NCBI RefSeq assembly: GCF_003967175.1
Contig: NZ_AP018553.1
Span: 2,219,982 to 2,283,981 of the forward strand
Reading direction: 5' to 3'
DNA length: 64,000 bases
DNA from: Sulfodiicoccus acidiphilus
GTDB lineage: Archaea; Thermoproteota; Thermoprotei_A; Sulfolobales; Sulfolobaceae
Below the pieces are notes generated by a model, which searched no databases, had not been told where the DNA came from, and was given only the letters and a program-made list of their open reading frames with translations. The position numbers and the translations under genes are program-made. Shown piece after piece: positions 11,880-61,512 of this stretch; position 1 is the first letter of the stretch, and every line of letters starts with the position of its first letter.

Positions 11880-12747
11880 AAGAGGCTCATCTCCAAGAAC
11901 CGATTCAAGCCGAGTCGAAGCGGCCTAAGATAGCAAGCACCTCAAGAACTTAAGGACATGTACGCGAAGCTAGAGAAGCGGTTCGCCTGCAACTACCACG
12001 TCATCGTGATGAGGGACATACGAGTTAAACAACTGTTCTACAAGTCCTTAAGATCTATGAGAAAGAGATTACGATAGGTCTCCCTTCCACGAACTTGGAA
12101 CTGTGACGAAGTATAAGGTAGGGAAGTACTGTGAGAGGTTTAATCCTGGTAGATCCTAAACACACTTCGAGGAATTGTGCCAGATACAGCTGACTTCCTC
12201 CCCGCCCTGGAAGGGACGAGGGTTCCCTCCCAGAGGGATCGTCGTTCCCACCACCGGTTCGGGTTTACATGTCTCGTTTGGTGGGCAGTCGAGTGGATCA
12301 GAGATCCACTCCCATTTGAAGAGGAGGGGACTTTCATCGCAAAGCTCTAGTCCCTTAAGGGAGAAGAGAGACGATGGTTGCTCCTCCCACAGTCCCATTA
12401 AACCTTCGATCGAGCTGGGGAGGAGCGTCGTTAGTACCACTAAGAGAAATTTCACAAAGAAGTATTTAAATATATAAGGGGGCTATCCATCCCCGCCGTG
12501 AAAGGCGAGGCTTTCCGCCCCCTTAACCCCAATTTTTGTAACTTGAAGGAAAGACCTAACTTTGAAAGATCACGCCTCCACAAATGCCTTGTGAGGTCGG
12601 GTAGCTGACCAGAACTACAACGGTCCTCTTAACGTCCTGAAGAGGTCGGAGATAAGGCAGCTCTCATTGGAGCTCTGCCCTCTACCGTTAAGCAAGGTGG
12701 GGGCAATGAGGAGGAAGCCCCGCCCATGGAGACGGGGTAATTAAGTC
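11880..12747 (+). pseudogene. tnpB: Dead tnpB (IS200/IS605 OrfB) interrupted by mini-element copy A
   Basis: Reading the plus strand with several frameshifts and stops recovers TnpB in the right order. First comes KDMYAKLEKRF, then VIVMRDIRVKQLF and KSLRSMRKRL (11957-12075), then LILVDPKHTSRNCARYS (about 12132-12188, the region leading into the zinc finger). After the interrupting element, LERKTLTLKDHA and ADQNYNGPLNVLKRSEIR (degenerate RuvC III) appear. The tail KPRPWRRGN reads through the right-end hairpin gccccgcccatgg...ggggt at 12717-12742. The 350-bp gap in the middle is exactly copy A. TnpB is the RNA-guided nuclease of these elements; this copy is clearly inactive. Confidence 0.8.
12191..12537 (-). 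mobile_element. Family-1 IS200/IS605-derived mini-element, copy A
   Basis: About 347 bp, nearly identical over most of its length to copies B and C. On the minus strand it begins right after TTAC with the left-end hairpin (cgcctttcacggcg within a gggggc...gccccc stem). It then carries the 3' tail of a tnpB frame (DPLDCPPNETCKPEP, VGTTIPLGG, PFQGGEEVS) and ends in the right-end hairpin cccttccagggcgggg followed by aggaagtca. No transposase is inside, so it must be moved in trans by a Y1 TnpA. It is inserted within the tnpB pseudogene, splitting TSRNCARYS from LERKTLTL. Confidence 0.88.
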
Positions 12748-19526: not shown

Positions 19527-19939
19527 GAGACTAAATGTTCCCCTAAGGAAAATAAGAGAGTAAGTGTAGTGGAGTAAAGTGTCAAACGTGAAAATTTCTT
19601 AAGCCTCGCTACTTCTCTCCGCACTCTCAACTCATCGTTTTATTGTGAGTTATACCATATCCACTGGTGGACCTAGGGTCTTCTGAAGCCTTAACGACAC
19701 ACTCAACTCCTGTCCTGGGTGTTTACGTAGTTCAGTACCTCTCATTAACGCAAGGAGTTACAAAGGACCGAAAGCCTCGCCCTTCAGGGCGGGGAGGAAG
19801 TCATAGACGTGTTGTACTCAGGATTGCGAACGACCCTGAGATATGACAACCAGACCCCTTACCGTTAATGTGTGTGATCATAAGAGGGGAGAAATTAGAG
19901 GAAAGTATCGGTACCTGAAAAGTTAGGTTAGTCTAGAAG
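19527..19939. other. Intergenic stretch with IS200/IS605 relic
   Basis: No gene is seen. The stretch from about 19690 to 19805 looks like a worn tnpB 3' tail on the plus strand, ending in a clear right-end hairpin (separate entry). The remainder contains nothing I can assign. Confidence 0.45.
19774..19804 (+). mobile_element. Solo family-1 right-end hairpin (IS200/IS605 relic)
   Basis: The plus strand reads tcgcccttcagggcggggaggaagtca: a cccttcaggg hairpin followed by the same cggggaggaagtca terminus as family-1 elements A-D. It is in the opposite orientation to all those copies. In frame it encodes KASPFRAGRKS, the usual read-through tail of tnpB. Upstream DNA is too decayed to show the rest. 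Confidence 0.6.
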
Positions 19940-27169: not shown

Positions 27170-27696
27170 CCTTTGACTGCTGGGGGCAGTCGGGTGGCTC
27201 AGAAGACTCCCACATGAAAAATGGGACCCTCATTGCATAGCTCAGATCGCTAGAAAGAGAAAGGGAGGTATGCTGGATGCATCTCCCTTAGTCTTGTTAA
27301 GTCCTCGATCGAGCTAGGGAGGATGGTCGGTAACATCACTAATAGGTTTCCTGAAAAACTATGTGAACTACCCCTCCCTCGCGGACGGGGCATCTCGCGG
27401 TGGGGATTTCCTGCTTCCCGGAGGAACCTCGATCCCCGTCCGTAGCGGAGGTTCAGTGGAACCTTTCTGTGAACAGTACGGAAGGGGGATCACGGAGGGT
27501 TTCCTCTCCACGGGCGTGAGTTCCCCCGGTCCCGAGGGTGCAACCCAGCTCTCACAGTAGAGGTCGTAGAAATAGTATTTTGACAACCGTAAAGAGGTTT
27601 ACATAAGGGGGCTGTCCGTCCCCACGGAAGGGGACTTTCGCTCCCTTAACCTCCGTAAGGTTAAATGAGGGCTTTTCGCCCCCTTAACCCTTCATT
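27170..27696 (-). mobile_element. Family-1 mini-element (diverged), split by a family-2 element
   Basis: Two separated pieces align to family-1 copies. The segment at about 27181-27360 has ggcagtcgggtgg, a cactcccacatgaaaa-like block and cctcgatcgagctagggagga. The segment at 27659-27696 is the left-end hairpin (gggcttttcgccccc, then ttaaccc). The minus strand begins immediately after TTAC (gtaa at 27697-27700 on plus), as in copies A-D. Between the two pieces sits a complete family-2 element, so this is a nested insertion. The family-1 right end is eroded, making the 27170 boundary approximate. Confidence 0.65.
27363..27654 (-). mobile_element. Family-2 IS200/IS605-derived mini-element nested in a family-1 copy
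   Basis: About 292 bp and the best preserved family-2 copy here. The minus strand starts after TTAC with a left-end hairpin (ccccttccgtgggg within ggga...tccc). It carries the 3' tail of a tnpB frame (CESWVAPSGPGELTPVERKP, GSTEPPLRTGIEVPP, DAPSAREG) and ends in the right-end hairpin ccccgtccgcgaggg plus gtagttcac. No transposase is inside. The flanking gtaa (27655-27658 plus strand) shows the same TTAC target as family 1. Confidence 0.78.
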
Positions 27697-40216: not shown

Positions 40217-40337
40217 ATGTTCCGCTTTACGATTAACTATTGAAAACCTAGGTCACCCAGCCAATATGGAGAAGGTTTCCTCAAAAGTGTTTCTAGCTTG
40301 GGTCTTTTCTCTCATTGACTCATTCAACAATCTTAAC

Positions 40338-40678
40338 TGACTTCCTCCCCGCCCTGGAAGGGACGAGGGTTCCCTCCCAGAGGGATCGTCGTTCCCACCA
40401 TCGGTTCGGGTTTACATGTCTCGTTTGGTGGGCAGTCGAGTGGATCAGAGATCCACTCCGATCTGAAGAGGAGGGGACTTTCATCGCAAAGCTCTAGTCC
40501 CTTAAGAGAAGGAGATAATAGCTGCTCCTCCCTCAGTCCCATTAAACCTTAGATCGAGCTGGGGAGGAGCGTCGTTAGTACCACTAAGAGAAATTTTAAC
40601 AAAGAAGTATAAATATGAGGGGGCTATCCGTCCCCGCCGTGAAAGGCGAGACTTTACGCCCCCTCAACCCCCCTCTCT
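40338..40678 (-). mobile_element. Family-1 IS200/IS605-derived mini-element, copy B
   Basis: About 341 bp, closely matching copies A and C. On the minus strand it follows TTAC (gtaa at 40679-40682 plus). It opens with a nested hairpin (cgcctttcacggcg inside gggggc/gccccc), carries a short frame ending DPLDCPPNETCKPEP...PFQGGEEVS (tnpB tail), and ends with cccttccaggg and aggaagtca. A TATA-like stretch lies just inside the left end (aaatttctt/tatttatac), so the tail could be transcribed as RNA. It lies between fni and tRNA-Asn and disrupts neither. Confidence 0.88.
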
Positions 40679-40740
40679 GTAAGAAACTTCTCGATATTAC
40701 AAAGATTCGACCAGCCGCCTCACCGCTTATCCTCCTGATC

Positions 40741-57521: not shown

Positions 57522-57579
57522 TGTTTTTACGTTTTCCCTATTGTGGCGGCTCTTACAGGTGGGTTTTAGCGGATTTTCC

Positions 57580-57920
57580 TGACTTCCTCCCCGCCCTGGA
57601 AGGGACGAGGGTTCCCTCCCAAAGGGATCGTCGTTCCCACCATCGGTTCGGGATTACATCCCTCATCTGGTGGGCAGTCGAGTGGATCAGAGATCCACTC
57701 CCATCTGAAGAGGAGGGGACTTTCACCCATTACGTCTAGTCCCTTAAGAGAAGGAGATAATAGCTGCTCCTCCCTCAGTCCCATTAAACCTTAGATCGAG
57801 CTGGGGAGGAGCGTCGTTAGTACCACTAAGAGAAATTTTAACAAAGAAGTATAAATATGAGGGGGCTATCCGTCCCCGCCGTGAAGGGCGAGACTTTCCG
57901 CCCCCTCAACCCCAATTTTC
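57580..57920 (-). mobile_element. Family-1 IS200/IS605-derived mini-element, copy C
   Basis: 341 bp, very close to copy B (differences cluster in a short block and single bases). The minus strand follows TTAC (gtaa at 57921-57924 plus). It has the nested left hairpin (cgcccttcacggcg), the tnpB tail frame with DPLDCPPDEGCNPEP, VGTTIPLGG and PFQGGEEV, and the right-end hairpin plus aggaagtca. The differences between copies mostly keep the frame open. It lies between dnaG and the phosphatase gene. Confidence 0.88.
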
Positions 57921-57998
57921 GTAAAATGGCTTAGCCGAGACATAGCTCCTTTAAGGTCTTACGAGCATGGTATTTGGTTAATCCTTGCTTTAAAGCAG

Positions 57999-58802: not shown

Positions 58803-58822
58803 TCATCTCTACTTCTATATGC

Positions 58823-59140
58823 TGACTTCCTCTCCGCCCTGGAAGGGGTTCTACTGCAAAGGTGTCGTGGTTACCACCGTCGGTTCGGGATCGCGTCTCC
58901 GGTGAGCGGTGGGGGGGGGGAACTCTTCCACGTGAAAAGGGGACTTTCGTCGCTGAGCTCCAAATCTCTTGAGGAGGGAATAAGGAAGAATGTTGTTCGT
59001 CTCTCTCCCTAAGTCCCGTTGAGGCCCCAGTGGAGTTGGTGGAGAGACGTCGTTGGTATTTCTGATAGATGTACGGAAAAACTAGTGCAAGGGGGCCATC
59101 CGTCCTCACTACGGTCTTACGCCCTCTTAACTCCTTTTTT
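58823..59140 (-). mobile_element. Family-1 IS200/IS605-derived mini-element, copy D (diverged)
   Basis: About 318 bp. It retains the right end (tgacttcctctccgccctgg on plus), the ggttcggga and cgtgaaaaggggac blocks, the tggagagacgtcgtt block, and a left-end hairpin ending at ctcctttttt next to gtaa (59141-59144 plus, TTAC on minus). The internal tnpB frame is broken, and a run of nine G's has arisen near 58911-58919. So this is an older copy than A-C, but its ends are still recognisable. Confidence 0.78.
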
Positions 59141-59549
59141 GTAACTATTTATGGAAAGAGCGCAAGGATCCTTAATTGTTCCTGGGATTAAGCCGTAGAA
59201 AGTTAACGCCAGGACATATACCCTAATTAAGCTAAAGAACAGTGAGCACCTAGTGAAAATAGACTAAGAAGCTAAAGTTATATCTTAGTTCATGAATGGT
59301 CTAGCCCTTTCTAGACCTCATTTCTAGATAACGAGTACCTAATGTGGTATTAGGAATGGCACCTCCACAGTCGTGTGCACTTACATGCATACGAGATCCA
59401 GATCGAGATTATAACACTTGCATGTTAACTTTCACACATTGCCAAATCACTTTCAACTGTCGTGTGAATAAGAGCTATATTTATTTCGCGCTACTTTTGA
59501 TTTTTCACTGATGAGCTCCTCATGATCTAGAACCTTAACTCCAAATTTT
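59141..59549. other. Intergenic DNA with a segment shared with 27701-27850
   Basis: No gene is seen. From gttaacg at 59202 to about 59320 the sequence parallels the DNA right after the nested elements at 27701: the blocks agaacagtga, tgaaaatagactaag, taaagttatatct and catgaatggtctag recur in the same order. The rest (59320-59540) is AT-rich and unassigned. Confidence 0.4.
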
Positions 59550-61223: not shown

Positions 61224-61512
61224 GTGAACTACCACGCCCTCGCGGACGGGGCGTCCTCGCGGTGAGTCCCGCTCCTCGGAGGAACCTCGATCTCCTTACG
61301 TAGCGGAGGTTCAGTGGAACCGTTGTGAACAGTACGGGAGGGGGATCGCGGAGGGTTTCCTCTCCACGGGCGTGAGTTCCCCCAGTCCAGAGGGTGCGAC
61401 CCAGCTCTCACGGCCGATGTCTAGAAGACGTTGGAGTCTCATTACGAAAACGTTTCTATGAGGGGGTATCAGTCCCCACGGAAGGGGACTTTCCCCCAAC
61501 CCCCTCGCTGTG
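61224..61512 (-). mobile_element. Family-2 IS200/IS605-derived mini-element
   Basis: The plus strand starts with gtgaactaccacgccctcgcgg (right end). It carries acctcgatctcc, tagcggaggttcagtgg, gggtttcctctccacgggcg and ccagctctcacgg blocks almost identical to the copy at 27363. It ends with a left hairpin (gtccccacggaaggggac). The minus-strand frame (ESWVAPSGLGELTPVERKP) is kept, then broken. The target TTAC is not clear here. A separate family-1-like left end follows immediately. Confidence 0.72.

Follow-up and report, generated by a model that had tools for sequence, protein, structure and literature searches.

Mini-elements of Sulfodiicoccus acidiphilus that probably encode stand-alone guide RNAs for TnpB

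We analyzed a window of 64,000 nucleotides (bases 2219982-2283981 of a single contig of 2,353,189 bp) from the genome of Sulfodiicoccus acidiphilus HS-1, an archaeon of hot springs, in which short elements lacking a nuclease gene recur. These mini-elements are probably non-autonomous IS200/IS605 elements that encode stand-alone, trans-acting guide RNAs (omegaRNAs) for the nuclease TnpB. An earlier note, written from the letters of this DNA, had suggested that they are stand-alone TnpB guide RNA loci, and the suggestion is now supported by a TnpB with a matching type of scaffold, by substitutions consistent with RNA pairing and by empty insertion sites. Our reading is built on observations of element anatomy, of the rule of insertion, of the identity between guides and empty sites, of conserved RNA structure, of scaffold homology to tnpB 3' ends and of an intact TnpB resident in the genome.

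Copies of the mini-element

The genome holds at least 42 mini-elements (copy numbers per genome are lower bounds). A whole-genome BLASTN search with one complete copy, copy B of the window, gave 43 matches, about 33 of them at 88-97% identity over about 345 bp, with seven further copies at 70-78% identity. In the window, the 18-nt right-end motif GGGCGGGGAGGAAGTCAG (three mismatches or fewer) occurs five times against 0.07 expected. Copies A (12190-12537, with TTAC at 12538-12541), B (40337-40678, complete from left to right end in the 40-copy alignment) and C (57579-57920, with TTAC at 57921-57924) lie on the minus strand, where the earlier note had placed them. Covariance modeling added three copies, of which two lie in the window, also on the minus strand: copy D (58822-59140, with TTAC at 59141-59144; 52.8 bits with model R1 of the RNA 5' domain), which is degraded and has lost its TATA box, and a fifth, truncated copy (27219-27349; 88.5 bits with R1), whose sequence comprises the 5' domain and the start of the core without a left or right end. 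The third is a degraded copy at genome position 1105669.

In an alignment of 40 genome copies, TTAC stands directly 5' of the element in 38, and GTCAG, or a sequence close to it, forms the right end of all 40. The downstream DNA is distinct in every aligned copy, as the note had claimed from four loci, with a best pairwise guide match of 11/16, and flank positions other than TTAC carry 0.0-0.47 bits of information. No open reading frame of 80 aa or more overlaps 40337-40682 (copy B plus TTAC); the mini-element thus contains no nuclease gene or other sizeable frame, as is expected of a stand-alone guide RNA locus.

A tiny remnant on the plus strand at 19758-19803, opposite to copies A-D, consists of TTAC followed by AAAGGACCGAAAGCCTCGCCCTTCAGGGCGGGGAGGAAGTCA (19762-19803), a left end fused to a right end with almost nothing between. 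Another repeat family, D3/D4, occurs at 27409-27565 and 61267-61421; a related stretch has dozens of genome copies, and one repeat of this pair adjoins the truncated mini-element at 27219. At genome positions 831206-833253 (L064), a mini-element adjoins the right end of a same-family element near a decayed tnpB, a nested insertion of relatives.

Guides and empty sites

The joined flanks of copy L105 from genome G003 identified an unoccupied site in its congener G012, with 82% identity over about 345 nt. The empty site reads ATTAC followed directly by TATAGCTCTAAACC, and the filled site reads ATTAC, the element and then TCTAGCTCTAACC. Therefore, the element inserts precisely on the 3' side of TTAC, duplicates no target bases, and has as its guide the DNA that had followed TTAC. 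Within S. acidiphilus, copy L063 sits in a gene whose unoccupied G003 homologue reads TTTAC and CCAACGAGAGAAGTAG, which is the L063 guide in 16/16 positions. Copy L005 sits in another TnpB gene, and the G018 homologue has TTTAC followed by an 18/19 guide match. Unoccupied homologues were also found for L012 and L020, strongly diverged at the presumed transposon-associated motif (TAM). As in omegaRNAs, the guide is thus the DNA past the right end, and its sequence recurs beside the TAM in the empty site; the L105, L063 and L005 comparisons support the guide logic of the earlier note. Unoccupied paralogues of the L005 site within the genome match its guide at 18/19 positions and have CGC in place of TAC; no intact self-target was seen among them, a genome scan with all guides not having been made.

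The flanks quoted in the note for copies A-D are correct in their letters, D included, but the leading G that it took as the first flank base belongs to the element, because it is invariant in the copies and missing from the empty site. The guide of copy B therefore begins TTAAGATTGT at 40336.

Anatomy of the element

On the minus strand, the order of parts is a left end with a hairpin, a TATA box, a spacer of about 22 nt, an RNA 5' domain of about 120 nt with helices P1 and P2, a core of about 131 nt, the right end and the flank. In copy B, the TTAC target site and presumed TAM (40679-40682), which precedes 38 of the 40 copies and stands before the guide in empty sites, is followed by the left end (40618-40678), common to full-length tnpB elements and conserved across genera at a mean of 1.25 bits per position. 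The TATA box, TTTATA (40608-40613), is at the tnpB promoter position; mini-elements across genera keep TTTAAATA/TTTATA, at the spacing between the tnpB TATA box and ATG. The 5' domain (40474-40585; P1 40524-40570, P2 40474-40501) is defined by covariation and scores 131 bits with R1. The omegaRNA core (40337-40468, with the terminus GAGGAAGTCAG) is defined by homology to tnpB 3' ends, by covariation and by a 22.3-bit match to the Rfam family HgcC, and contains hairpins H1 (40438-40458), H2 (40394-40432) and a right-end hairpin (about 40346-40384). The would-be guide, TTAAGATTGTTGAATG (40321-40336), is unique flank 3' of the right end, and its 16 nt follow the guide length of ISDra2.

In intact relatives, tnpB starts about 22 nt past the same TATA box, so that its mRNA is probably leaderless; in the mini-elements, the RNA 5' domain begins at that spacing, with the predicted RNA start of copy B near 40585. 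Across genera, the mean information content is 1.5 bits per position both in the TATA box and in the RNA start with P1; the core averages 1.36 bits, the spacer 1.05, and the flank and guide about 0.2. Therefore, the left end, promoter and RNA have been retained, beyond the two ends. The note had held that the copies preserve just the tnpB tail and the right end; both are present, but a left end, a promoter and a separate 5' RNA domain are kept as well.

This anatomy bears on the notion that the mini-elements are functionless relics of independent internal deletions in tnpB elements. Such decay does occur here, in tnpB pseudogenes and the tiny remnant at 19762-19803. However, all mini-elements have one internal structure, which tnpB genes lack and which is spread over many Sulfolobaceae genera; they are thus one old family rather than separate deletions, and we regard the relic explanation as barely credible. 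R1 found the 5' domain in mini-elements or their fragments and never in a tnpB gene body, and a parent with this domain inside tnpB was rejected.

Some mini-elements (L121-L126 in G020, L109 and L111 in G024) have the right end and guide replaced by one common tail (GGAGCTTCCGGTATAAAAACCTTTCC...), with different left flanks. They are perhaps composites with another mobile element, or carry a fixed 'guide'.

Conservation of RNA structure

Since the structure was drawn partly from one of the aligned sequences, the slid control leans towards structure, and the shuffles leave relatedness in place; with these limits, P1 and P2 in 26 mini-elements of 11 genomes had 91% of cells paired against 47-59% in the slid control, and 28 double changes where shuffles gave 12. 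For the whole RNA, the values were 85% against 44-55% and 67 against 32, and for the core, in 38 sequences mixing mini-elements and tnpB 3' ends, 85.5% against 42-54% and 45 against 22. Compensatory changes occur in both the 5' domain and the core across Sulfolobaceae genera, and the double changes in P2 (GGGACU/AGUCCC versus GGGAUCC/GGAUCCC) are the clearest sign of constraint. Substitutions thus follow pairing, one of the checks that the note had proposed, and the secondary structure is conserved with covariation, as in omegaRNAs. The core of copy B also folds better than its shuffles (z -2.5).

An alternative 10-bp right-end hairpin (CUGGGAGGGA/UCCCUUCCAG) was set aside, its pairing itself being a fit, and a GACU/AGUC pairing of the core with the 3' terminus was rejected, no pair having changed on both sides. 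The P2 loop (40474-40501, minus strand) holds a GATGA-like motif that is conserved and lies between purine-rich strands on either side, an arrangement reminiscent of a kink-turn or L7Ae site.

Relation to TnpB elements

The core corresponds in sequence to the final codons and 3' end of one TnpB family, in S. acidiphilus and in other Sulfolobaceae genomes; the scaffold is homologous to the tnpB 3' end plus right end, as that of an omegaRNA is. Full-length elements in the same genome (L079, L060) and in relatives (L141-L151) have the left and right ends of the mini-elements flanking a tnpB of about 381-390 aa. L079 encodes the sole intact TnpB of the cognate family in the genome (381 aa, Cas12f1-like_TNB domain). 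Its element starts with AAAGGGATGAAAGCC after TTAC and ends with GAGGAAGTCAG, and it shares with the mini-elements the TTAC, left end, promoter and core type. The frame is intact, the second and third RuvC acidic residues align with TnpB structures in a PDB comparison, and the first RuvC aspartate (VAVDIN) was assigned from its motif. A TnpB with a matching type of scaffold, which the note had made a condition of its proposal, is thus present.

Intact cognate TnpBs were found in G000, G003 and G024 and nearly intact ones in G020, genomes with several well-kept mini-elements. In G007, G011, G013, G017 and G018, no clear cognate TnpB was found, and mini-elements are few and mostly degraded. An order-wide model search matched eight genomes, all Sulfolobaceae; contig scans for relatives yielded none by protein and two contigs by DNA pattern. 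At 75 C, SisTnpB1 from Sulfolobales cuts with TTTAA (PMC10640517), ISDra2 TnpB uses a right-end element RNA (reRNA) of about 150 nt with a 16-nt guide, the insertion site being the TAM (PMC8612924), and RNA processing has been observed at a tnpB 3' end in S. acidocaldarius (PMC12817955).

Relation to HgcC

The only Rfam match was HgcC (RF00062), an orphan archaeal noncoding RNA, whose covariance model aligns with the core from end to end, GAGGAGGUCAG included, and reaches the beginning of the guide. Copy B matches with an E-value of 0.0058, and the L079 tail scores 41.6 bits (E 3e-6). Among the 20 HgcC matches listed for the genome, 13 are TnpB 3' ends, three of these being inferred from a common C-terminal reading frame, and seven are mini-elements. 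In T. kodakarensis, HgcC1-3 start within transposase genes, and HgcC4-5 are expressed without association with a transposase gene (PMC4247193). These findings point to HgcC as a family of TnpB omegaRNAs whose stand-alone forms can be transcribed. HgcC resembles the mini-elements in aligning over the whole core and, in T. kodakarensis, in occurring both inside and apart from transposase genes; the mini-elements add a 5' domain and mostly an extra core hairpin. No description joining HgcC to TnpB was found in the open-access literature, although subscription papers may hold one.

Proposed mechanism

We propose from the sequences that the mini-elements may be transcribed, that their RNA may be loaded by TnpB in trans, and that cutting by this TnpB would lead to their retention. 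An element consists of TTAC, left end, tnpB-type TATA promoter, a predicted RNA of about 260 nt (5' domain and omegaRNA core), right end and guide. A transcript started at the internal promoter would continue past the right end and into host DNA, so that the last 16 nt or so of the RNA would equal the DNA that adjoined TTAC before insertion. Loaded with this RNA, a TnpB encoded by another element would target TTAC plus guide, which would be only the empty site, where the element has been lost or in an allele without it. Such targeting would favor retention or recopying of the mini-element. The mini-elements therefore look like parasites that borrow the enzyme of another element to hold their place.

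Several points weigh against this reading. The core of L079 is a short variant, whereas the mini-elements have a long core with an extra hairpin of about 22 nt. This long core also occurs in tnpB elements of G020, G015, G004 and G024, but only in relatives did we see long-core TnpBs whose frames are intact or nearly so; because of this mismatch, use of the mini-element RNAs by L079 in its own genome is only inferred. At the protein level, L079 shares 78% identity with the long-core members compared and 79-80% with those having a short core. G012 has seven mini-element matches and only broken cognate TnpBs. Taken by itself, the 5' domain of copy B shows no better folding than its shuffles (z -0.27), and recent spread may lie behind part of the similarity between genomes and can inflate conservation. 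The HgcC scores (about 22-32 bits for mini-elements, at most 41.6 for TnpB tails) are all below the gathering score of 50 bits, and mini-elements and TnpB tails are therefore related to HgcC rather than members of it.

A broader proposal, which we offer tentatively and would put at slightly less than an even chance, is that 'guide-RNA satellites' form a class extending across the family Sulfolobaceae, mobile elements that have dropped the nuclease, replaced the tnpB mRNA with a promoter-driven 5' RNA domain and parasitize the TnpB of other elements, with dozens of natural guides per TnpB, and that HgcC is the same kind of omegaRNA. If this is true, the TnpB retention mechanism can be shared, and an element needs only a guide gene to use it; a thermophilic TnpB then has dozens of natural guide/target pairs available in a single genome, satellite parasitism becomes testable among the transposons at the root of CRISPR-Cas12, and the HgcC RNA family gains a likely function.

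Comparison with known RNAs

Stand-alone, trans-acting omegaRNAs of IscB were reportedly found in Ktedonobacter racemifer by Altae-Tran in 2021. Both these and the mini-elements are guide loci without an adjacent nuclease gene, the former belonging to the IscB family and the latter to TnpB. With the omegaRNA or reRNA of TnpB (ISDra2, PMC8612924; SisTnpB1, PMC10640517), the mini-elements share core homology to the tnpB 3' end and right end, a guide in the flank and a TAM equal to the insertion site. Unlike these tnpB-borne RNAs, they lack a nuclease gene and have their own promoter leading straight into the RNA, an extra 5' domain and about 40 guides in one genome. The apparent novelty lies in the mobile family itself, which is large, has complete ends, has kept the tnpB promoter and carries a covarying 5' domain specific to its lineage; among the genomes searched with models, this family was confined to Sulfolobaceae. 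No description of TnpB guide-only mini-elements was found in the open-access literature, although subscription papers may hold one.

A precedent within Sulfolobales is RNA-257_1-4 of Saccharolobus solfataricus, a set of transcribed RNAs that stand alone and are homologous to the distal portion of a transposase gene; the four copies belong to the ISC1904 family (resolvase and transposase genes), were called rearrangement remnants and were proposed to act as antisense RNAs (PMC3674436). The mini-elements resemble them as putative stand-alone RNAs with homology to the distal portion of such a gene. By analogy, the mini-elements could be transposon-derived antisense regulatory RNAs co-opted by the host. 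We consider this very improbable, as the roughly 40 copies lie scattered, have mobile ends and each carry a 3' sequence of their own, and as pairing and end anatomy are conserved rather than one antisense stretch.

Class and mobilization

The mini-elements insert on the 3' side of a fixed tetranucleotide, duplicate no target bases and have end hairpins in common with autonomous relatives, which places them among non-autonomous IS200/IS605 elements. Their sequences suggest that a Y1 TnpA would mobilize them in trans. A single intact tnpA is present in the genome and lies in L074 (genome 429000-435000), an IS605-type element with its own TnpB, which is a candidate mobilizer because its end hairpins resemble those of the mini-elements.

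Elements of the type of miniature inverted-repeat transposable elements (MITEs) or palindrome-associated transposable elements (PATEs) in the IS200/IS605 group have left and right ends without a transposase. The mini-elements might be ordinary members of this class, moved by TnpA in trans, with end hairpins kept as DNA only and any RNA incidental and without guiding. The resemblance of their ends to those of L074 agrees with this, and 88-97% identity among copies suggests a recent burst. Nevertheless, we think this explanation unlikely: transposition requires the ends and not an interior of about 200 nt, different genera retain the promoter and the 5' domain, with compensatory changes, and the similarity of the core to tnpB 3' scaffolds extends to parts within the coding region. 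The interior of the mini-elements, a conserved, promoter-headed structured RNA, is what sets them apart from MITE/PATE-type elements.

One mini-element copy, L023, lies directly upstream of L074, in head-to-head orientation.
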